NCBI GenBank assembly: GCA_030525245.1
Contig: JAUNFB010000002.1
Coordinates: forward strand, 48,759 to 84,915
Origin: Erysipelotrichia bacterium
Lineage (GTDB): Bacteria > Bacillota_I > Bacilli_A > Erysipelotrichales > Erysipelotrichaceae
Direction of reading: 5' to 3'
Length of the DNA: 36,157 nt
Positions within the stretch are counted from its first letter, which is position 1. Each line of letters starts with the position of its first letter. This document shows positions 4,761 to 21,529 of this stretch, in pieces. Position numbers and translations under genes: made by a program. Below the pieces are notes generated by a model that was not told the DNA's origin, ran no database searches, and saw nothing but the letters and a program-made list of their open reading frames with translations.

Positions 4761-6914
4761 ATGAAAAAGAAGGAAAATATTAAGAATTTGGTAATTGTCG
4801 AATCACCTTCAAAGGCTTCAACAATTGAAAAATATTTAGGAAAAGACTATGTGGTAACAGCTTCTAAAGGTCATATTTGTGATTTGGCAACCAGCGGTAA
4901 AGGTCGTTTAGGAATTGATGTGGACAATGATTTTAAGCCGACATATGTTATTTCCAAAGATAAGAAAGCAGTAGTTAAAGAATTAAAAGAAAAGGTAAAG
5001 GATGCAGATAATGTGTTATTGGCTACAGACCCGGATAGAGAAGGGGAAGCAATAGCTTATCATTTAGCAAAAAATTTAGATATTGATCTTAATGAAAAAA
5101 ATCGAATAGTTTTTCATGAGGTTACCAAACCGGCAGTTACGCAGGCCATATCTCAACCACGGAAAGTGGATATGAATTTGGTTAATTCTCAAGAAACCAG
5201 AAGAATATTGGATCGGATTATCGGTTTTAAACTAAGCGGACTTTTAAACAGCAAAATAAAATCACGCAGTGCCGGTAGAGTACAATCGGTTGCTCTAAAA
5301 CTTATTGTTGACCGGGAAGAAGAAATAAACAGATTTGTTCCTCAAGAATATTGGACAATAAATGCCGAATTTAGCAAAGAGAAAACAGATTTTTCTGCTG
5401 ATTTAACAAAAATTAATAATGAAAAAGCTAAAGTTGAAAATCAACAACAAGCCCAGGAGATTGTTGATGAATGTACAGGTAAGGAGTTTACTGTTAAACA
5501 AGTCAATAAGGAAATTAAAGCCAAAAAGCCTAAATTAGCTTATACCACTTCTACTTTGCAACAAGATGCGGCCAATAAATTGTATTTTACTTCTAAGAAA
5601 ACTATGACAATTGCACAAAAATTATATGAAGGTATTAATATCGGTACAACAACTACCGGTTTGATAACTTATATGCGTACTGATTCTACGCGTCTATCAC
5701 CGGTATTTATTGAACAAGGTAAAAAATATATTTTAGATAATTTTGGACAAAAGTATGTAGGGAATTATCATCAAAAAATCGGCAAAAATTCACAAGATGC
5801 GCATGAAGCAATTCGAGTTACCGATATTAATAATGAACCGGACAAGATAAAAAATTATTTAACTAATGATGAGTTGAAATTATACCGATTAATTTATAAT
5901 CGCACATTGGCGGCTATGATGGCAGATGCTCTCTATGATAGTATGACCGTATTGTTAAATTATCAACAATATGAATTTACTGCCAATGGGAAAACACGCA
6001 TATTTGATGGCTATTTAAAAGTTTATCCGGAGGTTGATGATGATAAAATTTTACCGGTTTTGACTGAAAAGGAACAAATTTCCCCATTGGAAATTATCAG
6101 TAAGCAACATTTTACCGAACCACCATCAAGATATACCGAAGCAAAATTAATAAAAACAATGGAAGAAAACGGAATCGGTCGTCCATCAACTTACGCCACA
6201 ATAATTGATACGATAATTAAGAGAAACTATGTTTCATTAGAAAAACAGAGTTCAGGCAGCAAAACAAAAGTGTTTATTCCTACCGAACAAGGTATATTAA
6301 CAACGAATAAACTTGATGAATTTTTCAAGGATATCATTAATGTTAAATATACAGCAAATATGGAAAAACAATTGGATGAAATAGCTGAAGGTGAATTGGA
6401 CAAAGTCAAATCTCTTCACGATTTTTATGAACAATTTATAAAATTGTTGGATAATGCCAAAGAGAATATGGAAAAAATTCAACCGGTGAAAACCGGCAGA
6501 ACCTGTCCGCAATGCGGCAATGAATTAGTTATTCGCAAAGGAAGATATGGCGAGTTTATTTCCTGCAGCAATTATCCGGAATGTAAGTATCATGAGAGTA
6601 TCGGAGAAGAAAATAGTGATAATGATTTCGGCGTATGTTCGCAATGCGGCAGTAAATTGGTGGAAAAAATGGGTCGCTTCGGCAAGTTTGTTGCTTGCAG
6701 CAATTATCCTCAATGTAAATATATTGTTAAAAAGGAAAAAGAAGCACCGGTGGAAGTGGGCAGAACTTGTCCGCAATGCGGCAGTGCTTTAGTGGAAAGA
6801 GTTTCTCGGTATGGAACAAAATTCATTGGATGTAGTAATTATCCGAAATGTCATTATATTGAAGCTACGAATAAGAAAAGTGCTTCAGCAAAAAAGGTAA
6901 AAAAGAATGGATAA
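4761..6914 (+). CDS. topA: DNA topoisomerase I (type IA)
   Basis: This enzyme relaxes negative supercoils through a transient 5'-phosphotyrosine link. The Toprim domain begins at [18 protein letters not shown] and includes [15 protein letters not shown]. The nucleophile is Tyr304 in TYMRTDSTR. Three C-terminal zinc ribbons follow, starting at about Cys582, Cys626 and Cys670, each with CxxCG...CSNYPxC. The protein ends in a lysine-rich tail. The 717-aa length is normal for Bacillota. An AAAGAGGT ribosome site precedes the start, and the 3' end overlaps trmFO by 8 nt. Confidence 0.98.
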
Positions 6915-8196
6915 AGTAAATGTAATCGGAGCCGGTTTAGCCGGATGTGAGGCAACTTATCAGTTAATACGTAAGGGAATAGAAGTAAATTTGTATGAAA
7001 TGCGTCCGCAAAAAAATACAGGCGCACATCACACGGATAAATTCAGCGAGCTTGTTTGTTCAAATTCGCTAAGAAGTAATTCATTATCTAATGCTGTCGG
7101 TCTTTTGAAAGAGGAAATGCGCTTATTGGATTCGCTGATAATGAGATTTGCTGATAAGAATGCCTTGCCTGCGGGAAGTGCGCTAGCTGTTGATCGGGAA
7201 CATTTTGCTCAAGGAATAACTGATTACATAAAAAATAATCCCTTGGTAAATGTAATCAATGAGGAAATAACGATTATTCCTGACGGGCCGACAATCATTG
7301 CGACCGGACCATTGACATCGGATAAGTTTTCTGAAAGTATTCGTCAATTTTTACATCAAGATTCTTTACATTTTTATGATGCCGCAGCACCTATTGTCAC
7401 CAAAGAATCGGTCAATATGGATGTTGCTTATTATAAAAGTCGCTATGATAAAGGTGAGGCAGATTATCTGAATTGTCCGATGAACAAAGAACAATTTGAT
7501 CGCTTTTATTATGAACTTGTTAATGCGGAAACTGCTGAATTGCATGATATTGATAAAGATGAAACATATTTTGAAGGTTGTATGCCGATTGAAGTAATGG
7601 CTAAAAGGGGTCCGCAAACTTTGACTTTCGGTCCATTAAAACCTGTTGGTCTGGACAAAGATGGACAAAGGTTTTATGCTGTCGTCCAGCTCAGACAAGA
7701 TAATGCTGTAAATACATTGTATAATTTGGTAGGCTTTCAAACCCATTTGAAATGGAAAGAACAAAAAAGGGTGTTTTCTTTGATTCCGGGATTGGAAAAT
7801 TGTGAAATTGTCCGCTATGGTGTAATGCATAGAAATACTTATTTAAAATCACCATTGATATTGAAACCAACATATCAATGTAAAAAACGCGATGATTTGT
7901 TTTTTGCCGGGCAGATGACCGGTGTGGAGGGCTATGTTGAATCGGCTGCCAGTGGGCTTCTTGCCGGACATAATATGGCTTTATATTTAAGTGGCAATCA
8001 ACCTTTGGTATTGCCCAATACAACTATGATTGGAGCTATGGCTCATTATATTACGGAGGCCGCAGAAAATTTTCAACCGATGAATGCTAATTTTGGAATT
8101 TTCAATTTAACTATTCCAACGAAAAAGAATGAAAAAAAGCAAGCTTATAGTCTGCAGTCTTTACCGATAATTAAAGAGTACAGTAAAGAGTGGTAA
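6907..8196 (+). CDS. trmFO: Folate/FAD-dependent tRNA (uracil-54 C5) methyltransferase TrmFO
   Basis: TrmFO makes ribothymidine at position 54 of tRNA using methylenetetrahydrofolate and FAD. The FAD-binding motif [11 protein letters not shown] is at the N-terminus, followed by YEMRP and [13 protein letters not shown] (Cys51). The catalytic Cys is Cys225 in [13 protein letters not shown], matching Cys226 of the B. subtilis enzyme. The C-terminal [20 protein letters not shown] is also typical. The length of 429 aa is standard. The gene overlaps topA by 8 nt and lies 2 nt before xerC, the classic Bacillota order. It draws on the same folate pool as thyA and dfrA further along the window. Confidence 0.97.
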
Positions 8197-9125: not shown

Positions 9126-10454
9126 ATGTTTTTTTATTTAGGATTATGGGCAAGCAAAATTTATTATCGTTTTTTCGAAAAAAATAAAGAAGCTGACAGG
9201 ATGGGGATTGTCGCCCTGAAATTTGATGATAAATTTCTTTATCATATAGCTAAACCTAAATTGGTTATTGCGGTAACAGGTACAAACGGGAAAACAACTA
9301 CTTGCAATATATTAGCAGATTTGTTTCGTAAGGAAGGTTATAGAGTCGCGTTTAATCAAGATGGCTGTAATTTGCGCCCGGGTTTAAGCAAAGCCTTGAT
9401 ATTAAATACTTCTGTTTTTGGTAAAAGCCAAGCCGATGTAGCTATTTTGGAATTTGATGAATTATCGACCAAAGATTTATTAGCCGCCGTAAAACCTGAT
9501 TATGTTATTTGCACCAATTTATTTATGGATACGATGGGGCGTAATGGTCACACCGATTATGTGTTTAATAAAATCAATGAAGGTTTACCGCAAGAGTCTA
9601 CTTTGATTTTAAACAGTGATGATTTAATTTCATCGCAATTAGGTAAAAAAAATAAAAGAATATTTTTCAGCATTGCTCAACAGAAAAATGAAAAAAGCAA
9701 AAATATTTCCAAGAATTGCGATATTAAAATATGTCCCAATTGTGGCAATAAATTAGTGTTTGATTTTATTCGTTATCACCATATTGGCAGAGCTCATTGT
9801 CCGGTTTGTTCTTTTCAAAATGAAAAAGCTCAATATGTTGTTACGGATTATGACGATTATTCAATGACTGTGAACGGAGAAAAATTTAAATTATTAAATA
9901 ACTCCTTGTTTAATATTTATAATCAATTGAGTGCACTTGTTGTTGCGAAAGAATGCGGATTAAAACATATTGCTCATTCTTTTGAAAGTATGGAAATAGT
10001 TCATTCACGCTTTTTTAATGAGAAGATCGGTGATGTGAGGGTGGTATTTCAAATGACTAAGGGGCAAAATCCTGTTTCACTGTCCAGAGCAATGGATTAT
10101 GTAAGTAATCTTCCGGGAAAGAAAAATATAATTATCATAATTGATGATTTGTTTGACATGCGTTCACAAGAAAGAAGCGAAGTTATCTCTTATATTTATG
10201 ATACCGATTATGAATGCTTGAACAAAGAAGATATTGACAGAGTAATCGTTGCGGGAGTGCGTTATGCCGATTATAAAGTAAGATTGTTATTGGCTAAGAT
10301 ACCATCGGAAAAGATAGTTGCCATAAAGGATGAAACTAAATGCGTTGATTTTGTACAAGATGGTGTGGATACCGTGGCGGTTGTGCATGATATATATCAA
10401 TATCGTAATGCCGATATTATCCTAAGAGAATTGCAGCAGAGGTTTGGAAAATGA
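9126..10454 (+). CDS. MurT-like Mur ligase (first copy)
   Basis: A 442-aa protein of the MurT family, whose known members use ATP to amidate the D-Glu of lipid II with ammonia passed from GatD. Seen here: P-loop GTNGKT (52-57), LEFDE (109-113), a zinc ribbon with Cys203/206 and Cys225/228, a NIYN motif, and the C-terminal MurT domain with SYIYDTDYE. The Asp that completes the GatD triad in the pneumococcal complex (Asp355) aligns with Val353. A hydrophobic N-terminal stretch could sit at the membrane. It follows xerC by 24 nt with an AAAGGTGAT ribosome site and overlaps its GatD-like partner by 4 nt. A paralogue lies at 17988-19355. Family is firm; the reaction is uncertain. Confidence 0.85.
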   Translation: MFFYLGLWASKIYYRFFEKNKEADRMGIVALKFDDKFLYHIAKPKLVIAVTGTNGKTTTCNILADLFRKEGYRVAFNQDGCNLRPGLSKALILNTSVFGKSQADVAILEFDELSTKDLLAAVKPDYVICTNLFMDTMGRNGHTDYVFNKINEGLPQESTLILNSDDLISSQLGKKNKRIFFSIAQQKNEKSKNISKNCDIKICPNCGNKLVFDFIRYHHIGRAHCPVCSFQNEKAQYVVTDYDDYSMTVNGEKFKLLNNSLFNIYNQLSALVVAKECGLKHIAHSFESMEIVHSRFFNEKIGDVRVVFQMTKGQNPVSLSRAMDYVSNLPGKKNIIIIIDDLFDMRSQERSEVISYIYDTDYECLNKEDIDRVIVAGVRYADYKVRLLLAKIPSEKIVAIKDETKCVDFVQDGVDTVAVVHDIYQYRNADIILRELQQRFGK

Positions 10455-11143
10455 TTATAGAATATTTATATAGTGATGTGGCTGATCTATACGGCGATAG
10501 CTTTAATGTTGAATATCTTGCCGAATGTTGTGAGAATACCGAGATTATTAGAACGGAATTTAATCAAGAACCATATTTTGTGAAACATCATGTGGATTTG
10601 ATTTATATGGGTTCAATGATGGAAAGGTACCAACAAAAAATTATCGAACAATTAAAACCATACAAGGAAAAATTACAAGAACTTATTGAAAATAATACTT
10701 TTTTCTTAATTACAGGTAATGCTTTGGAAATATTCGGAGAAAAAATTGATGATATCGAAGGCATAGGATTATTTGATTTTTATGCACAAAGAGATTTTAG
10801 CCATCATCATAATTCTTGTTTCTTAGGTAATTTTAACAATATAAAAATAGTTGGTTTTAAATCTTTGTTTTCCAATTCGAGCCCGTGTGATAAGTATTTT
10901 ATCAATGTGGAAAAGGGATACGGATTTAAAAACAGCGATCATGAAGGAATTAAATATCGTAATTTTTACGCTACTTATTTGATAGGTCCATTATTGATAT
11001 TGAATCCTTTGTTTACAGAATATTTACTGAAGGAAATGGGAGTTAATTATAATTTAAAATATCGAGAGGATTTAATAAATGCTTACGAAATAAGGCTAGA
11101 AGAATATATGTCTTACAAAGAATTCAAAGAATTTAAACATTAA
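10451..11143 (+). CDS. GatD-like subunit without catalytic Cys/His (first copy)
   Basis: A 230-aa relative of GatD, the glutaminase subunit of lipid II amidotransferase. Homology is seen in the N-terminal LYSDVADLYGD, the central GLFDFYAQRD, the VGF segment, EGIKYRNF and GPLLILNP. The nucleophile motif, normally ICGGxQxLG, reads ITGNALEIFG, placing Gly89 at the Cys94 position. The catalytic His of the YxHGP motif is Ile178. The GGGxD loop before the nucleophile and the ENHxGRT motif are also lost. The reading frame is intact, and the start overlaps the MurT-like gene by 4 nt, so the two are probably made as a complex. It cannot be expected to hydrolyse glutamine. It may be structural, or the enzyme may use free ammonia or another amine. 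Confidence 0.8.
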   Translation: MIIEYLYSDVADLYGDSFNVEYLAECCENTEIIRTEFNQEPYFVKHHVDLIYMGSMMERYQQKIIEQLKPYKEKLQELIENNTFFLITGNALEIFGEKIDDIEGIGLFDFYAQRDFSHHHNSCFLGNFNNIKIVGFKSLFSNSSPCDKYFINVEKGYGFKNSDHEGIKYRNFYATYLIGPLLILNPLFTEYLLKEMGVNYNLKYREDLINAYEIRLEEYMSYKEFKEFKH

Positions 11144-11292: not shown

Positions 11293-12231
11293 ATGTCAGT
11301 TGTTACAATGCGTAAGTTATTAGAAAGCGGTGTTCACTTTGGACATCAAACAAGAAGATGGGATCCAAGACAAAAATCTAACATCTATTGTGCAAAAAAT
11401 GGAGTTCACATTATCGATTTGGAAAAGACAATTACAGCTATTGATGAAGCATATGCTGCAATGAAAGCCATCGCTGAAAGAGGCGGACGTGTTTTATTTG
11501 TTGGAACAAAGAAACAGGCTCAAGCAATCGTTATGGAAGAAGCATTAAGAAGCGGATCATTCTATGTAAATCAAAGATGGTTGGGCGGAACATTGACAAA
11601 CTATCGTACAATTCAAAAGAGAATCAAGAGATTAGTTGAAATTGAACAGATGGAAGAAAAGGGAACTATCGCTAATTATCCTAAAAAAGAACAAGCTTTA
11701 ATTAAAAAAGAAGCTGAAAAGTTAGAAAACTTCTTAGGCGGAATCAAAGAAATGAAGAAATTACCTGATGCTTTATTTGTTGTTGATCCTAAAGAAGACT
11801 ATAATGCCGTATTGGAAGCAAGAAAATTAAATATTCCGGTTTTCGGTATTGCAGATACTAACTGTGATCCAGCTATTTTGGATTATGCTATTCCGGGAAA
11901 TGATGATGCTGTTAAAGCTATCAAATTATTGGTTGGCGTAATGAACGATGCAATCGTTGAAGCTAAAGGCGGATTATTGGAATTTGCTTATACAACCGAT
12001 GAATTACCGGAAGTTACAATGAGCGATGTAATCGTTGTTGTTCAGGAACAGGCTGCTGAGAACGAAAGAAGAAGAAGATCTAAAAACGAAGAAAGACGCC
12101 AACAAAATAACCGTCAGAATAACCAACATCGCAAATATGAAAGAAGAGAAAGAGTACAACCTGCTGCAGAAAATACTGTAACAGAAGCAAAAGAAACTGC
12201 TGAACAACCGGCAGAAAAGACAGAGGAGTAA
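11293..12231 (+). CDS. rpsB: 30S ribosomal protein S2 with charged C-terminal extension
   Basis: S2 binds late in 30S assembly and is needed to recruit S1 and mRNA. The family start [20 protein letters not shown], the [10 protein letters not shown] motif and [10 protein letters not shown] are all present. The conserved protein ends near residue 250. A further 60 residues form a low-complexity tail, first strongly basic and Gln/Asn-rich (about 258-287), then acidic with repeated Ala/Glu/Thr. A long promoter-bearing leader precedes it, and tsf starts 2 nt after the stop. The tail is part of the open frame and is not caused by a frameshift into another gene. Confidence 0.97.
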
Positions 12232-12233
12232 TT

Positions 12234-13118
12234 ATGGCTAACTTAGTAGAATTAGTTAAGGAATTAAGAGAAAAAACCGGTGCCGGAATGCTTGATTGCA
12301 AGAAGGCTTTGGAAGCAAGCGAATGCGATATGGCAAAAGCAGTAGACTGGTTAAGAGAAAAAGGTATCGCAAAATCACAAGCTAAACAGGGAAGAGTTGC
12401 TGCTGAAGGATTGGCATCAATTTTGGTTGAAGGTAACAAAGCTGTATTGGTAGAAGTAAATTCAGAAACAGATTTTACTGCTAGAACCGATAAATTTAAG
12501 AATATGGTAAAAGCAGTTGCTAAAGCTATTTTGGAAAATGAACCGAAAGATGTTGAGGAAGCATTAACTTTAAAAGCTGAAAACGGAACTGTAAACGAAG
12601 AAATTGCTGCTGTTTCATTCGCAACCGGCGAAAAAATGACTTTAAGAAGATTTACAATCGTTGAGAAAAATGATGACCAATTATTTGGCACATATGTTCA
12701 CCACGATGGAAAAACTGCTTGCATTGTTGTTTTAACAGGCAAAAATGAAGAAGTAGGCAAACATATTGCTATGCAAATTGCTTCAATGAAACCGCAATAT
12801 GTTGATAGAGACCATATGCCTCAAGAAATTGTTGAACATGAAACTGCAATTCAAAAAGAAATTGCCAAGAATGATCCGAAAAATGCCGGAAAGCCTGAAG
12901 GAATTATTGATAAAATGGTTGCCGGAAGAGTTTCAAAATCATTACAGGACTTGTGCTTGGTTGATCAAGCTTTTATCTTAGATGGTAATTTAAAGGTGTC
13001 TGCTTACTTAAAGAACAATGATTCTGCAGTTGAAAGTTTTGTTCTTTATGTTGTCGGTGAAGGAATCGAAAAGAAAAAAGACAATTGGGTTGAAGAAGTT
13101 GCTGCAGCATTAAAGTAA
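12234..13118 (+). CDS. tsf: Elongation factor Ts
   Basis: EF-Ts recycles EF-Tu by promoting GDP release. The N-terminal UBA-like domain (LVKELREKTGAGMLDCKKAL) and the core signature NSETDFTAR are present, and the 294-aa length fits the family. It starts 2 nt downstream of rpsB in the universal rpsB-tsf operon. A strong intrinsic terminator follows directly, so pyrH and frr, which often come next in Bacillota, are not part of this operon. Confidence 0.98.
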   Translation: MANLVELVKELREKTGAGMLDCKKALEASECDMAKAVDWLREKGIAKSQAKQGRVAAEGLASILVEGNKAVLVEVNSETDFTARTDKFKNMVKAVAKAILENEPKDVEEALTLKAENGTVNEEIAAVSFATGEKMTLRRFTIVEKNDDQLFGTYVHHDGKTACIVVLTGKNEEVGKHIAMQIASMKPQYVDRDHMPQEIVEHETAIQKEIAKNDPKNAGKPEGIIDKMVAGRVSKSLQDLCLVDQAFILDGNLKVSAYLKNNDSAVESFVLYVVGEGIEKKKDNWVEEVAAALK

Positions 13119-13124
13119 TAAATT

Positions 13125-13151
13125 AAAGACGAAGAAATTCGTCTTTTTTTT
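13125..13151 (+). terminator. Intrinsic terminator of rpsB-tsf
   Basis: A perfect 9-bp stem (13125-13133 with 13138-13146) closes a GAAA tetraloop and runs into a T-tract to 13151. Confidence 0.92.
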
Positions 13152-13166
13152 GCTCGATAAATATGC

Positions 13167-13172
13167 TAATAT
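13167..13172 (+). promoter_or_regulatory. Extended -10 of the fba promoter
   Basis: TAATAT preceded by TGC forms an extended -10 in the short gap between the tsf terminator and fba. No good -35 is visible; the T-tract of the terminator occupies that place. The strong SD GAAGGAGG follows at 13196-13203. Confidence 0.4.
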
Positions 13173-13209
13173 ATTTATGTAAACAAAAGCATTTTGAAGG
13201 AGGATTTTT

Positions 13210-14175
13210 ATGCCATTAGTTACATCTAAAGATATGTTTGAAAAAGCATATAATGGCGGATATGCAATCGGCGCTTTCAATGTTAATAACATGGAAATAA
13301 TTCAGGGTATTACTGAAGCAGCAAAAGAATGCAATTCACCGGTTATTTTACAAGTTTCTAAAGGTGCAAGAGCATATGCCAATAGAACTTACTTGGTTAA
13401 ATTGGTTGAGGCAGCAGTAATTGAAACAGGATTGCCAATCGTTTTACATTTGGATCATGGTGATTCTTTTGAAATATGTAAATCATGTATTGATGATGGT
13501 TTTACATCTGTCATGATCGATGCTTCAAGCAAATCATTCGAAGAAAATATTGCTTTAACAAAACAAGTTGTTGATTACGCTCATGCTCGCGGTGTAGTTG
13601 TTGAAGCTGAATTAGGAACACTAGCAGGTGTTGAAGATGATGTAAAAGTATCTGCTGAAGATTCATCATATACAAGACCTGAAGATGTTGAAGAATTCGT
13701 TAAGAGAACAGGTTGTGACTCATTAGCAATTGCTATCGGTACAAGTCATGGCGCATATAAGTTTAAGCCGGAACAATGTACACGCAATGAAAAAGGTATT
13801 TTAGTACCACCTCCATTACGTTTTGATATCTTGGACGAAGTATCTAAGAGATTACCTGGCTTCCCAATTGTATTACACGGTTCATCTTCAGTACCTCAAG
13901 AATATGTAAAGATGATCAATGATCACGGTGGACATATGCCGGATGCAGTAGGAGTTCCTGAAGAACAATTAAGACAAGCTGCTAAATTAGCTGTATGTAA
14001 GATCAATATTGATAGTGACTTACGTTTAGCTATGACCGGAACAATTCGTAAATACTTTGATGAACACCCTGCTGATTTCGATCCTCGTCAATATTTGAAA
14101 CCGGCAAGAGAAAACATCAAGAACCTTGTTAAGCACAAGATTATAGATGTTTTAGGATCAGAAAACAAAATTTAA
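13210..14175 (+). CDS. fba: Class II fructose-1,6-bisphosphate aldolase
   Basis: This zinc-dependent enzyme splits fructose-1,6-bisphosphate into dihydroxyacetone phosphate and glyceraldehyde-3-phosphate in glycolysis. Seen: GAFNVNNME near the N-terminus, the metal-binding LHLDHGDSFE, VVEAELGTLAGVEDD, AIGTSHGAYKF and the late LHGSSSVP. Later INIDSDLRLA is typical of the class II aldolase/tagatose aldolase family. The context is monocistronic, with its own upstream promoter-like element and a strong terminator. The protein is 321 aa. A tagatose-bisphosphate aldolase is possible, but the length and motifs favour FBA of the FbaA type. Confidence 0.93.
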   Translation: MPLVTSKDMFEKAYNGGYAIGAFNVNNMEIIQGITEAAKECNSPVILQVSKGARAYANRTYLVKLVEAAVIETGLPIVLHLDHGDSFEICKSCIDDGFTSVMIDASSKSFEENIALTKQVVDYAHARGVVVEAELGTLAGVEDDVKVSAEDSSYTRPEDVEEFVKRTGCDSLAIAIGTSHGAYKFKPEQCTRNEKGILVPPPLRFDILDEVSKRLPGFPIVLHGSSSVPQEYVKMINDHGGHMPDAVGVPEEQLRQAAKLAVCKINIDSDLRLAMTGTIRKYFDEHPADFDPRQYLKPARENIKNLVKHKIIDVLGSENKI

Positions 14176-16841: not shown

Positions 16842-16864
16842 AGATAGTGAAAAGAGGCTTAAAG

Positions 16865-17950
16865 ATGACAACTGTTAATAATATTTACGAATTACGAAAG
16901 AACTTACATAATATTCCGGAAAAAAGTTTTGAGGAATTGAAAACAATGAATCTGTTAATTGAGTTTATTGCCAAAAACACGACGTTTACGATTGTAAAAA
17001 AAGATAAATGGTTTTATGCATATAAAAAGAGTACAAGACCTTTAAAAAAGCCGATAGCATTAAGATGCGATATGGATGGAATTACTTTATCCGATGGTGA
17101 TACCGGTCATTATTGCGGGCATGATGGACATTGCGCAATTATTTGTTATGTGGCAGTGTTACTTTCTAGGATGAATGTTTATAGAGATGTATATTTGATT
17201 TTTCAACCGGCAGAAGAAATTGGACAGGGGGCTAAGTTGTGTTGCCAATTGCTTGAAGAAAAAGAAATATCCGAAGTTTACGGTTTACATAACATTCCGG
17301 GATTTCCTCTTGGGAGCATTTTATTAAGAAAGAAAACATTCGCTTGTGGATCTACGGGATTAAAAATAAGTTATACTGGAAAGCCGACACATGCTGCCTA
17401 TCCGGAAAACGGAATAAATCCTACAGATGCTTTTGTAGAACTAATCAATAACATAAAAAAAATTACTTCCGTTTATAAAGAAAATGGCAGAATATTGTTG
17501 GCAACGGTTATCGGGTTGAATTTGGGCAGTGAACAATTTGGTATGTCTGCTCATTCAGGTAATTTGAATTTGACAATCAGAGCAGATGAGCAAAATATAT
17601 TTGTCAATTATCTTTCTGCTATTAAAAATGAAGCTCGACAATTAGCGAAAAAATACAATTTAAAGTGTAGTATTGAGGAAACGGATTATTTTCCGGTGAC
17701 AGAAAACAGAGAAAATTGTGTTCAAAAACTGGAAGATATATGTCAAAAAAACGCTTGGGAATATATTTATTTGACAGAGCCGATGCGGTGGTCGGAAGAT
17801 TTCGGTTATTATCTACAAAAAACACCAGGAGCATTTTTCGGTATCGGCGATGGTGAGAATTACGCACAATTGCATACAAAAGACTATCAGTTTCCCGATG
17901 ACATAATAGAAAAGGCTGCCAAAATGTTTACGGAAATCATTTTATTGTAG
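16865..17950 (+). CDS. M20-family metallo-amidohydrolase
   Basis: A 361-aa zinc hydrolase of the M20D group (N-acyl-amino-acid amidohydrolase, hippurate hydrolase and relatives), which removes acyl or amino-acid groups from small amides. Metal-site motifs are in order: RCDMDGI, the CGHDGH box, QPAEE, a HN motif in GLHNIPG, a lid domain with THAAYPENGINP, and the late LHTKDYQFPDD. It begins with no signal peptide, so it should be cytoplasmic. Start ATG 16865 is chosen for its SD and for the position of the promoter. It is first in an operon with a MurT/GatD-like pair and an M42 aminopeptidase, which might mean a role in amide or peptide turnover; the substrate is not known. Confidence 0.88.
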   Translation: MTTVNNIYELRKNLHNIPEKSFEELKTMNLLIEFIAKNTTFTIVKKDKWFYAYKKSTRPLKKPIALRCDMDGITLSDGDTGHYCGHDGHCAIICYVAVLLSRMNVYRDVYLIFQPAEEIGQGAKLCCQLLEEKEISEVYGLHNIPGFPLGSILLRKKTFACGSTGLKISYTGKPTHAAYPENGINPTDAFVELINNIKKITSVYKENGRILLATVIGLNLGSEQFGMSAHSGNLNLTIRADEQNIFVNYLSAIKNEARQLAKKYNLKCSIEETDYFPVTENRENCVQKLEDICQKNAWEYIYLTEPMRWSEDFGYYLQKTPGAFFGIGDGENYAQLHTKDYQFPDDIIEKAAKMFTEIILL

Positions 17951-17987: not shown

Positions 17988-19355
17988 ATGAAAAGATTTC
18001 GTTTTAAATTTACTTTATGGATAACTAAACTTATCATCCGGTTTATGAAATTATTGGGCTTTAATGCCACTAATATACCGGGTGAGATTGCTTTAAAATT
18101 ATATCCGGATATATTAAAAATGATAACCCCTCCCAAATGCGTTATTGCGACTACCGGTACTAACGGTAAAACCAGTACTAATAATATGCTATCCCAAACA
18201 TTGAGAAATTGCGGTTATACGGTTTTCGATAATGGCTTTGGCAGTAATATAATCAGTGGTATTGTTTCCTGCTTAATAACAAACTGCGATTTAAATGGAG
18301 TATGTCATCAGGAATTTGCCTGCTTAGAAATAGATGAGCGCAGTAGCATTCGCGTTTATAAATATTTACATCCAAATTATTTGTTATGCACTAATTTGCA
18401 GCGAGATTCAATGATGCGCAATGCCAATGTACAATTTATTTTTAATATAATTGATGAAAATTTGCCTCAAAGTACTAAATTGGTTTTAAACGGCGATGAT
18501 TTAATCAGTTCTCAATTGGGTAAGGGCAGAAATAAAAACAGAATATTTTTCAAAGTATTATTGCAGAAAAATGAAATTTGTCGAGATAATCTTATAAAAG
18601 ATATTGTCGTTTGTCCGCAATGCGGCAATAAGATCGAATGGGACTTTGTTCGCAATCATTCTCTCGGTCAAGGACATTGTCCGAATTGCGATTTTGCATC
18701 ACCTGAGTGTAAGTACATTTTAAAAGAAGTGAAAGACGGAAATATAATTGTCAGCAGCAACGGCAGCGATTATTCTTATCCTTTAGTCGGTTACAGAACT
18801 GTTGATTATTACAATGAAACAGCTGTTATATCTTTATTGAGTGAAGTGGGACTTAAACCGCAAGAAATAGCCCGCGGATTGAAAAATGTCCATATTCCGA
18901 CAAGCCGCTTTACAGCGGAGAAGGTAAACGGTATTGAAATTTTATCGATCTTATCTAAAGGCATGAATTCGGTTGCTATAAGCAGCAGTTGTGATGTGAT
19001 TAATAAAGATCCCCGCCCAAAAGCAGTTATTCTGAACTTGGATGATAGTCATGATGCGAAAAAATCTTCGGAAATGATTTCCTATATTTATGATGTAGAT
19101 TTCGAATTTTTCAAAGATGCTGGTATAAAACAAATTATGATTGGCGGTAAACGATCGCAAGATTACTTAGTTAGGATGTTATATGCCGGAATTGATGAAA
19201 ATATTATCAGCACTTCGTTTGATCCGGCTCATTCCGCTGATAAATTACAAGTCGACGGTTTGGAGGTTATCTATATTTTATTCGATATGTATGATATTCC
19301 TAACTATAAAAAAATTAAAGAAAAAGTTATTGAACTTTGTCGGGGGAAGAAATAA
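17988..19355 (+). CDS. MurT-like Mur ligase (second copy)
   Basis: A 455-aa paralogue of the ligase at 9126-10454. Seen: hydrophobic N-terminal segment (about residues 10-25), P-loop GTNGKT (57-62), LEIDE (113-117), TNLQRD, a shared segment DDLISSQLG, zinc ribbon Cys209/212 and Cys231/234, and C-terminal SYIYDVDFE. The triad-completing Asp of known MurT aligns with Met363. The substrate-site motif NIYN of typical MurT and of copy 1 is changed to DYYN. The gene has an AGAGG ribosome site and ends one base into the start of its GatD-like partner. ATP-dependent ligation is likely; the acceptor and amine donor are unknown. Confidence 0.85.
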   Translation: MKRFRFKFTLWITKLIIRFMKLLGFNATNIPGEIALKLYPDILKMITPPKCVIATTGTNGKTSTNNMLSQTLRNCGYTVFDNGFGSNIISGIVSCLITNCDLNGVCHQEFACLEIDERSSIRVYKYLHPNYLLCTNLQRDSMMRNANVQFIFNIIDENLPQSTKLVLNGDDLISSQLGKGRNKNRIFFKVLLQKNEICRDNLIKDIVVCPQCGNKIEWDFVRNHSLGQGHCPNCDFASPECKYILKEVKDGNIIVSSNGSDYSYPLVGYRTVDYYNETAVISLLSEVGLKPQEIARGLKNVHIPTSRFTAEKVNGIEILSILSKGMNSVAISSSCDVINKDPRPKAVILNLDDSHDAKKSSEMISYIYDVDFEFFKDAGIKQIMIGGKRSQDYLVRMLYAGIDENIISTSFDPAHSADKLQVDGLEVIYILFDMYDIPNYKKIKEKVIELCRGKK

Positions 19356-20059
19356 TGGTTATAGAAATATTATATTCGGAAGTAGCTAACCTTTTCGGGG
19401 ATAGAGGGAATTATTGGTTATTGAAAAAAAATCTTCCCGATTGTCAATTTATACTTACATCTATAAATGATAAACCGTATTTTGTTGATAATGAAGTAAA
19501 TATGATTTACTTAGGTCCAACTGACGAAAAGATGCAACTAATGATTATTGAACGTTTAAGACCGTATCAAAAAAAATTGTCTCAATTAATTGATGAGGGA
19601 ACATTTTTCCTCTTTACCGGTAATGCCTATGAAATATTAGGTAAGCAAATCGTAGACAAAAAAGGAAAAACCACCGAAGGCTTGAATATTTTTGATATTA
19701 TTGCTCAAAGAGATATGTTAAATCGCCAAAACAGTTTATTTATGGGAACTTATGAACAATTACAGATTGTCGGTTTCCAATCACAATTTGATTTTTTCAC
19801 CGGACAAGTACCACCGTTGTTTAAAGTAGAGTATGGCTTTGGACAAAATATTAAAGGTCTCGGAGAAGGAATTAGAGTAAATAATTTTTTTGCTACAACA
19901 TTGTTGGGACCTTTATTAGTTTTGAACCCTTGGTTTGCGAAAGAGTATTTGCGTTTGTTGGGATGCGAAATAGATGAATTGAAGTATGAAAAAGAAATGA
20001 TTGAAGCTTACAATTTGAGAGTAGAAGACTTTAAACATGTTATTAAAAAGGAGCATTGA
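19355..20059 (+). CDS. GatD-like subunit without catalytic Cys/His (second copy)
   Basis: A 234-aa paralogue of the protein at 10451-11143. ATG 19355 (overlapping the previous stop as TAATG, SD CGGGGG upstream) is preferred to a TTG at 19337 because the first residues then match copy 1 (IEILYSEVANLFGD). The nucleophile motif reads FTGNAYEILG, with Gly89 at the Cys94 position of GatD, and the catalytic His is replaced by Leu184 in TTLLGPLLVLNP. The GGG loop is LGPTDEK and the ENHxGRT motif is absent. Conserved family features remain (GLNIFDIIAQRD, VGFQSQF, EGIRVNNFF). It is probably a partner subunit of the MurT-like ligase rather than a glutaminase. Confidence 0.8.
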   Translation: MVIEILYSEVANLFGDRGNYWLLKKNLPDCQFILTSINDKPYFVDNEVNMIYLGPTDEKMQLMIIERLRPYQKKLSQLIDEGTFFLFTGNAYEILGKQIVDKKGKTTEGLNIFDIIAQRDMLNRQNSLFMGTYEQLQIVGFQSQFDFFTGQVPPLFKVEYGFGQNIKGLGEGIRVNNFFATTLLGPLLVLNPWFAKEYLRLLGCEIDELKYEKEMIEAYNLRVEDFKHVIKKEH

Positions 20060-20060
20060 A

Positions 20061-21110
20061 ATGAACAATGATTTTTTATGGGATTTACTAGCTACATCTT
20101 CTCCCAGCGGTAACGAAATACAATTACAGAAAAAAGTTTACAATTATGCTTTGGGATATGCCGATGAAGTGAGTAATGATTATGCCGGTAATGTTTATGC
20201 TTGCCTTAATCCGCAAAATAGATATACGGTAATGCTGGCTGCCCACAGTGATGAAATTTGTTTGCGGGTTATATCAATCGATGAAAGAGGCTTTTTAAAG
20301 GTGATTAATACCGGCGGAGTTAATTATAATATGTATCTTGGCCATCAAGTTCGGATATTTAATGGTAAGGATAGTATTTACGGCGCGGTTGTTGCTAATA
20401 ATAATTTGTATTCTGCCAATATAAAAGCGGAAGAATTGTATATTGATATCGGAGCAAAAAACAAAGAAGATGCTCAAAAGTATGTAAAACATGGTGATTG
20501 GGTGTTGTTTAATGACAGTGTATGCCAACTTCAAAATGACTGTATAATGGGCAAAGCTTTGGATGATAAACTGGGTGTATTTGTCATTTTTGAAGCATTA
20601 AAAAAGGCTAAAGAGTTAAGCTGTCAGACGAAGGTTTATGCAGTCAGTACAACGAATGAAGAGACGACATCTAAAGGAGCATATTATGCGGCCATGAAGG
20701 TAAAACCGGATATAGCGATTGCTGTTGATGTAACTTTTGCTTCCGATTTTCCGGGAAGTGCAATAGGTAAAACAGGAAAAGTTGTATTATCCGGCGGACC
20801 GGTTATAGATAACGGCTCAACCTTAAATCGCTTATTAAATAAAAAAATCATTGAAACAGCAAAAAAATATGATATAGATGTTCAGTATGAACTCAGTAAT
20901 GGTAATACCGGTACAGATGAAAGACGCATTCAATATGCCGATAAAGGTATTCCGTGTGCATTAATATCGATTCCTTTGAGGAATATGCATTCGCCATCTG
21001 AAGTAGCTGATTTGCATGACTTAAAGGCTTGCATTGATTTGATTGCCCATTTCTTGAATGAGATCGAATACAATGGGTTAGATTTAAATCCGTTTAATGA
21101 GGTGTTCTAA
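20061..21110 (+). CDS. M42-family aminopeptidase
   Basis: A 349-aa metallo-aminopeptidase of the M42 family (PepA glutamyl aminopeptidase, FrvX, YsdC types), cytoplasmic enzymes that trim N-terminal residues from short peptides. Metal and catalytic residues are visible: AAHSDE (His62, Asp64), ALDDKLG, NEETTSKGA, AVDVTFASD and NMHSP. ATG 20061 is chosen because AAAAAGGAG ends 7 nt before it; the gene follows gatD by 1 nt. Membership of the MurT-GatD operon is notable, but the family is common and its substrate here is unknown. Confidence 0.9.
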   Translation: MNNDFLWDLLATSSPSGNEIQLQKKVYNYALGYADEVSNDYAGNVYACLNPQNRYTVMLAAHSDEICLRVISIDERGFLKVINTGGVNYNMYLGHQVRIFNGKDSIYGAVVANNNLYSANIKAEELYIDIGAKNKEDAQKYVKHGDWVLFNDSVCQLQNDCIMGKALDDKLGVFVIFEALKKAKELSCQTKVYAVSTTNEETTSKGAYYAAMKVKPDIAIAVDVTFASDFPGSAIGKTGKVVLSGGPVIDNGSTLNRLLNKKIIETAKKYDIDVQYELSNGNTGTDERRIQYADKGIPCALISIPLRNMHSPSEVADLHDLKACIDLIAHFLNEIEYNGLDLNPFNEVF

Positions 21111-21529
21111 TGATTAACGAAAGTATAAATCGTGTTTTGAATTCGGGAATCGAAGCGCAAAATTCATTGAATGAGGCATTGTTCTATTTAGAACAATCTA
21201 AAGATTTAGGAGTTATGGACTTGACCGGGGGGAAAATGTTGGTTTCAATGGCCAAGTTCGGATCAATAGATAAGGCAAACGAACATATCGATGATTTTTG
21301 TCGTAAAACAAGAAAATTTGCTAAAGAGTTGTTTTCGATACGTGTACCGAAAAATTTTCGGATTGAAATTGATGGTTTTTTGCGCTTTACCGATATTGTT
21401 TTAGATCAAATGATCAGTGACGGAATTGTGCAGAAAAAAATTGTTGATTCCTTGAATGTAGCAAAACAATTGAAACCGAAAATTGACGAGTTGGTTGAAA
21501 CGTTAAAAAAATATAGGGAAGGTAAATAA
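21110..21529 (+). CDS. Uncharacterised 139-aa helical protein
   Basis: I do not recognise a named family. The sequence looks mostly alpha-helical, with no signal peptide, membrane segment or Cys cluster. A central motif [20 protein letters not shown] and the following [11 protein letters not shown] resemble a group of short conserved proteins I recall from Bacillota, but this could not be checked. The C-terminus ([14 protein letters not shown]) could form a coiled coil. It overlaps the M42 stop by one base (TAATG), has GAGGTG upstream and precedes thyA by 1 nt, so it is a real, coupled gene. No function is proposed. Confidence 0.7.

Follow-up and report, generated by a model that had tools for sequence, protein, structure and literature searches.

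The lipid II isoglutaminyl synthase MurT/GatD, known from Staphylococcus aureus (SA1708/SA1707), Streptococcus pneumoniae and S. pyogenes, is encoded by an overlapping two-gene operon and is composed of a zinc-ribbon Mur ligase and a class-I glutamine amidotransferase subunit. Residues C94 and H189 of GatD, together with D349 of MurT, form a putative catalytic triad, and importance for catalysis has been reported for GatD-C94 and MurT-D349 (Noeldeke et al., PMC6113224). The exchange of C94 for glycine in S. aureus GatD abolishes the use of glutamine but not NH3-dependent ligation, which persists at pH 8.5; S. aureus MurT requires GatD under every condition (Muench et al., PMC3266927). AslA (Aslfm), an ATP-grasp D-aspartate ligase, adds D-Asp at position 3 of the stem peptide (PMC4155827), and the wall of Erysipelothrix rhusiopathiae is of type B1delta, with a D-Glu-Gly-L-Lys bridge (PMC4062643). 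The Fem enzymes (FemX, FemAB, MurM), which build interpeptide bridges on lipid II, have a fold unrelated to that of MurT, use aminoacyl-tRNA as the donor and have position 3 as the acceptor. In Micrococcus luteus, the ATP-dependent addition of glycine to the α-carboxyl of D-Glu was reported as an activity in the 1960s. To our knowledge this activity has never been assigned to a gene, and no genes are assigned either to the enzymes by which the D-Glu carboxyl receives amino acids in walls of group B and related types.

The window analyzed here, a stretch of 36,157 nucleotides from an Erysipelotrichia bacterium of the Erysipelotrichaceae, contains two overlapping gene pairs of the MurT/GatD type, all on the plus strand: MurT1 (9126-10454), a Mur-type ligase, with GatD1 (10451-11143), and MurT2 (17988-19355) with GatD2 (19355-20059). 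MurT2, a Mur-type ligase of 455 amino acids in which the ATP/Mg site is intact and the zinc-ribbon cysteines and the acceptor-site Asn are present, scores 68.9 bits for MurT_C and 28.9 bits for Mur_ligase_M, and both it and MurT1 (73.1 bits) exceed the curated MurT_C cut-off of 25 bits. The open reading frame of GatD2 was called from a TTG, at 19337-20059; the ATG at 19355, behind GGGGGAAG, is the likelier start and overlaps the MurT2 stop codon (TAATG), both frames being intact and coupled. The initial annotation had placed Gly at the Cys position and Leu184 at the His position of GatD2, a reading that is the same from this ATG. Gly89 and Leu184 of GatD2, like Gly89 and Ile178 of GatD1, align to C94 and H189 of S. 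aureus GatD, and the Asp349 position of the triad is lost as well, SSEMISYIYD in MurT2 replacing ADGRDTSWIYD. The loss extends to two stretches of GatD, GGGxDxEQ and GFENHGG, and to the MurT loop DGxDTSW, in which Asp349 lies.

When the window proteins were compared with solved structures by phmmer, the closest were clearly MurT/GatD. An AlphaFold2 model of GatD2, built from an alignment with 41 relatives (pLDDT 95.5), had S. aureus GatD chains as its top Foldseek matches, with TM scores of 0.82-0.87 (E 1.8e-19 to 5n9m; TM 0.87 to 6h5e). The model indicates that GatD2 retains the class-I glutamine amidotransferase fold, its glutaminase chemistry being gone. Unlike the characterized synthases, the proteins fall far under the NCBIfam equivalog cut-offs (GatD2, 64 versus 450 bits; MurT2, 169 versus 800 bits); at 288 bits, however, the MurT of an ordinary Erysipelotrichales pair (L010) falls short as well. 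The CTP synthase encoded in the window retains its Cys and His (ICLGMQ, HPE), which eliminates poor sequence quality and a general loss of glutamine chemistry as explanations for GatD. Nor are the two loci assembly artefacts, a possibility that the initial annotation had raised, since flanking gene order is kept elsewhere in the genus: xerC-trmFO-topA-dprA-rnhB-ylqF at pair 1 in a second genome and thyA-dfr-orf139 at pair 2 in a third. An M20 amidohydrolase (16847-17950) and an M42 aminopeptidase (20037-21110) were rejected as partners of pair 2 because in neither G005 nor G241 are they conserved next to it. A 139-amino-acid protein (21110-21529, plus strand), which gave no Pfam match and lies near pair 2 also in a relative (54% identity), is a possible but weak candidate for an accessory of that pair. 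Elsewhere in the window, an acyl-CoA:6-aminopenicillanic acid acyltransferase-like protein (PF03417) is encoded among housekeeping genes at 889-1914.

Forty relatives divided cleanly. When 84,980 species genomes were scanned with the patterns [FIL]TGNAxE[IV][FL]G and [LV][LI]GP[LI]L[VI]LNP, 321 places matched, of which 296 were confirmed; both residues are missing from all 82 GatD proteins of the 80 loci kept, a count that is not independent because the pattern selects the new signature. We compared 106 non-redundant Cys/His-less pairs of Erysipelotrichales and Clostridia, hereafter dead pairs. The C94 position is Gly and the H189 position Ile, Leu or Thr in all 106, and D349 of MurT is lost in 102, with Asn in 73 and Asp in four. 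A new GatD signature, TGNAxE, is common to these pairs and conserved in them. The MurT Walker loop (GTNGKT, with Thr or Ser at one position), GAN, EIDE, TN, N267, R304 and the zinc-binding cysteines persist throughout the 106 or with few exceptions. The elements that activate the acceptor carboxyl are retained and those for ammonia production have disappeared. The body of GatD persists, in keeping with a MurT that continues to depend on it. Dead-glutaminase MurT/GatD is a real and large subfamily, present in a few hundred bacterial genomes, often with two to three pairs per genome; Neglectibacter timonensis SN17 (L123) was the only carrier found that is in culture. We found no description of a Cys-less GatD in the open-licence literature, and likewise no paper on the ATP-grasp ligase ATPgrasp_ST discussed below.

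The gene neighbors of dead pairs set them further apart from the ordinary synthase. A MOP-family flippase (Polysacc_synt/MurJ, MurJ/SpoVB-like) adjoins dead pairs in several lineages of both Clostridia and Erysipelotrichales, scoring highest as the Polysacc_synt/SpoVB type rather than as a bona fide MurJ, and at L110:990-4004 a flippase is naturally fused to a dead-type MurT in a single 1004-amino-acid protein. ATPgrasp_ST adjoins a dead pair in Erysipelotrichaceae genera g3, g37, g46 and g60 and in Clostridia (L083/L089, L130), among them loci L051-L054 and genomes G123, which belongs to the genus Erysipelothrix, G131, G178, G206, G287 and G210. In the window genome, ATPgrasp_ST lies directly upstream of genes that on inspection of their sequence are ftsA- and ftsZ-like. 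A diaminobutyrate-2-oxoglutarate transaminase adjoins the dead pair at L097, L099, L127 and L128 (561-611 bits; cut-off 438) and occurs in 8/20 Clostridia dead-pair genomes and in none of 60 Erysipelotrichales tested. Two Oscillospiraceae MAGs carry operon-like arrays of the dead type, transaminase-GatD-MurT-MurT-GatD at L127:2701-8258 and three MurT with two GatD at L126:450-6910, and in L200 (G121) a class-A PBP, a three-domain Mur ligase and a flippase share one region with a dead pair.

Tests of association were limited to Erysipelotrichales in which GatD had been read at the sequence level, 64 genomes with dead pairs and 19 with ordinary GatD; classing by score had proved wrong in one of 15 cases checked (G114, which is dead), and the final tests therefore used sequence-verified genomes only. 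ATPgrasp_ST exceeded its cut-off in 52/64 dead-pair and 0/19 ordinary genomes (p 5.5e-11) and, counted by genus, in 11/16 and 0/11 (p 3.5e-4), p-values that are only indicative because the genomes are related and many are incomplete MAGs. Strong FemAB matches showed the opposite distribution, 17/64 versus 18/19, with partial FemAB-like matches (E 1e-5 to 1e-13, mainly genus g3) scored as absent. All 17 of the FemAB-bearing dead-pair genomes are among the 47 with a single dead pair; among the 17 genomes examined with at least two, FemAB never occurs. Within genus g37, two-pair genomes are without FemAB, which is found in the one-pair genome G139 and the no-pair genome G046. The window genome has both dead pairs, one ATPgrasp_ST and no FemAB. 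Its MurE (L202:538-1989) has SEDNHWENP in place of DNPR, the DAP-binding motif (PMC3829189), which suggests that position 3 of the stem peptide is not DAP; the third residue in this lineage may be lysine or something unusual.

We propose, giving the idea an even chance of being right, that a dead pair is a Mur-type ligase through which the carboxyl of D-Glu in lipid II acquires an amino acid instead of ammonia, in replacement of FemAB bridges. The residue losses, their conservation, the single clade, the gene neighbors and the FemAB and ATPgrasp_ST statistics are observations; substrate, nucleophile, bond position and bridge are what we infer from them and from homology to MurT, which points to position 2 as the site. 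MurT would phosphorylate a carboxyl of the lipid-linked peptidoglycan precursor, most likely the α-carboxyl of D-Glu, as ordinary MurT does, while the catalytically dead GatD, making no ammonia, would stay as its obligatory structural partner. The amino group of an amino acid, in some Clostridia perhaps a diamino acid such as diaminobutyrate, would then attack the acyl phosphate and give a branch on position 2, which ATPgrasp_ST may extend or complete. The pair, ATPgrasp_ST and a MurJ-like flippase would thus constitute a tRNA-independent, group-B-like 2-4 bridge system in place of FemAB, and two pairs in one genome would perform two ligations or use two amino acids. Extra copies, missing FemAB, an adjacent ATP-grasp ligase and a diamino-acid gene fit amino-acid ligation better than amidation with ammonia. 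On the other side stand the phylogenetic clustering of the associations, the 17 dead-pair genomes that keep FemAB and two genomes of the window's genus, G003 and G004, that are without the whole system. Diaminobutyrate as the general nucleophile is rejected for Erysipelotrichales, where the absence of the transaminase from every genome tested argues that it is not made by the cells themselves; for the window's lineage, diaminobutyrate produced by this transaminase is excluded. More tentative is the broader suggestion that dead GatD/MurT and ATPgrasp_ST form an unrecognised tRNA-independent pathway for position-2 (group-B) cross-bridges in much of the gut Erysipelotrichales and Clostridia, the former glutaminase now serving as a non-catalytic, perhaps amino-acid-binding, subunit.

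The proposed role, the building of interpeptide bridges on lipid II, is shared with the Fem enzymes, whose fold, donor and acceptor are different. Like the AslA reaction, the proposed one would add an amino acid to the stem peptide with the use of ATP and without tRNA; AslA differs from MurT in fold, however, and it is the incoming amino acid that AslA activates, its site of action being Lys at position 3. With the ATPgrasp_ST neighbors AslA can be compared by superfamily only. The predicted chemistry is the same as that reported for M. luteus, at the α-carboxyl of D-Glu, at the lipid stage and without tRNA.

Erysipelothrix offers a comparison with a described group-B wall. Genus g46 is Erysipelothrix, the rumA of G084 being 96% identical to the rumA that ends the record of E. 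rhusiopathiae phage phi1605. In typical Erysipelothrix species two ATPgrasp_ST genes (in L213, G084:C1, at 6071-7069 and 12189-13226), no FemAB and no MurT were found in 4/4 genomes; a dead pair is present in another two Erysipelothrix genomes, G123 and G239. Since typical Erysipelothrix has a group-B wall and no MurT, dead MurT/GatD is dispensable for a 2-4 bridge, and its candidacy as the group-B ligase is weakened. ATPgrasp_ST is itself a candidate for building the group-B bridge.

Several alternatives to amino-acid ligation must be weighed. The pair might still form D-isoglutamine, drawing on the free ammonium of the anaerobic gut instead of glutamine. Many hosts of dead pairs are gut anaerobes, and S. 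aureus C94G, the same exchange as in dead pairs, retains NH3-dependent amidation at pH 8.5 with GatD as a scaffold; at pH 7.5, however, S. aureus was inactive with ammonia (PMC3266927). Use of ammonium would also leave unexplained why a genome has two to three divergent pairs, why the D349 loop has been replaced, why ATPgrasp_ST goes with dead pairs, why multi-pair genomes have no FemAB and why some pairs have a diaminobutyrate transaminase as neighbor, and we regard it as unlikely.

Alternatively, an amino acid or amine could be ligated onto another lipid-linked surface polymer, such as a capsule or a secondary wall glycan, that is flipped by the adjacent polysaccharide flippase. The assignment of these flippases to the Polysacc_synt/SpoVB type would suit such a role, as would the name of ATPgrasp_ST, given after an association with sugar transfer (Pfam description). 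Against it, the MurT residues for the acceptor and for Mg have stayed unchanged in all 106 dead pairs, no glycosyltransferase cluster recurs across the 80 loci, and peptidoglycan is indicated both by the anti-correlation with FemAB and by neighborhoods with ftsA-ftsZ, a Mur ligase or a PBP, making a different polymer quite improbable.

A closer variant keeps peptidoglycan as the substrate and has the dead pair do no more than cap the carboxyl of D-Glu, with glycine for instance, as is seen in Micrococcus walls, and ATPgrasp_ST make the cross-bridge at position 3. By analogy with AslA, itself an ATP-grasp enzyme making D-Asp bridges at that position (PMC4155827), ATPgrasp_ST could indeed add an amino acid there, and the frequent coexistence of single dead pairs with FemAB fits capping. 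The exclusion of FemAB from genomes with more pairs looks instead as if the extra pairs take over bridge building, and Erysipelothrix, whose bridge is at position 2, has ATPgrasp_ST; we therefore consider a mere cap distinctly doubtful.

The evolution of dead pairs bears on how the catalytic residues were lost and on whether the proteins still function. In a tree of MurT and GatD that included nine ordinary pairs, all dead pairs stood apart from ordinary pairs with support near 1. The initial annotation had treated the two loci as independent cases of one double loss; since the dead pairs form a single clade, the loss of Cys and His is best read from the tree as one old ancestral event that covers both pairs of the window. 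Pair 1 groups with G002, G131, G178 and two Oscillospiraceae MAGs, and pair 2 with G005 and G241 in a separate supported subclade, so that the window loci are best read as old paralogues or transfers representing two old lineages. Different substrates for the two pairs, as the annotation had suggested, are plausible given these separate subclades; its argument from DYYN in place of NIYN in the second ligase is not supported. NIYN corresponds to S. aureus N264-N267 and S. pneumoniae N270-N273, which published structures place at the ATP site; it is thus not a substrate motif, and DYYN, with the Asp found at its first position in 14/106 dead pairs, says little about substrates.

Both subunits of dead pairs are under strong purifying selection, with dN/dS of 0.03-0.19, where measurable, in 27 close pairs. 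Together with the conservation of the altered signature in 106 pairs, this selection excludes sequencing error and random decay, which had at first been judged unlikely. Absence from close relatives, which had been thought to count against a function, does occur: MurT is missing from G003 and G004, both of the window's genus (94% and 91% complete), which indicates that the pairs are patchy and replaceable. The same two genomes are also without FemAB and ATPgrasp_ST. That dead pairs are non-functional relics decaying toward loss, as the missing catalytic residues and the patchy distribution within the genus might imply, is scarcely credible, being contradicted by the selection data, the conserved new signature, the intact coupled frames and the single ancient clade spanning many species.

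In a large set of Firmicutes these proteins are probably misannotated when they are called lipid II isoglutaminyl synthase; dead pairs probably attach an amino acid and may help to build a type of wall cross-bridge. If this is true, they are a clean case of an amidotransferase turned into an amino-acid ligase through loss of its glutaminase. The subfamily offers concrete candidates for the enzymes that attach amino acids to D-Glu, namely the altered MurT and GatD, ATPgrasp_ST and the flippase, and predicts which gut bacteria carry unusual walls. The D-Glu carboxyl belongs to the muropeptides sensed by NOD2, and a branch at this position could alter the recognition of these common gut bacteria.
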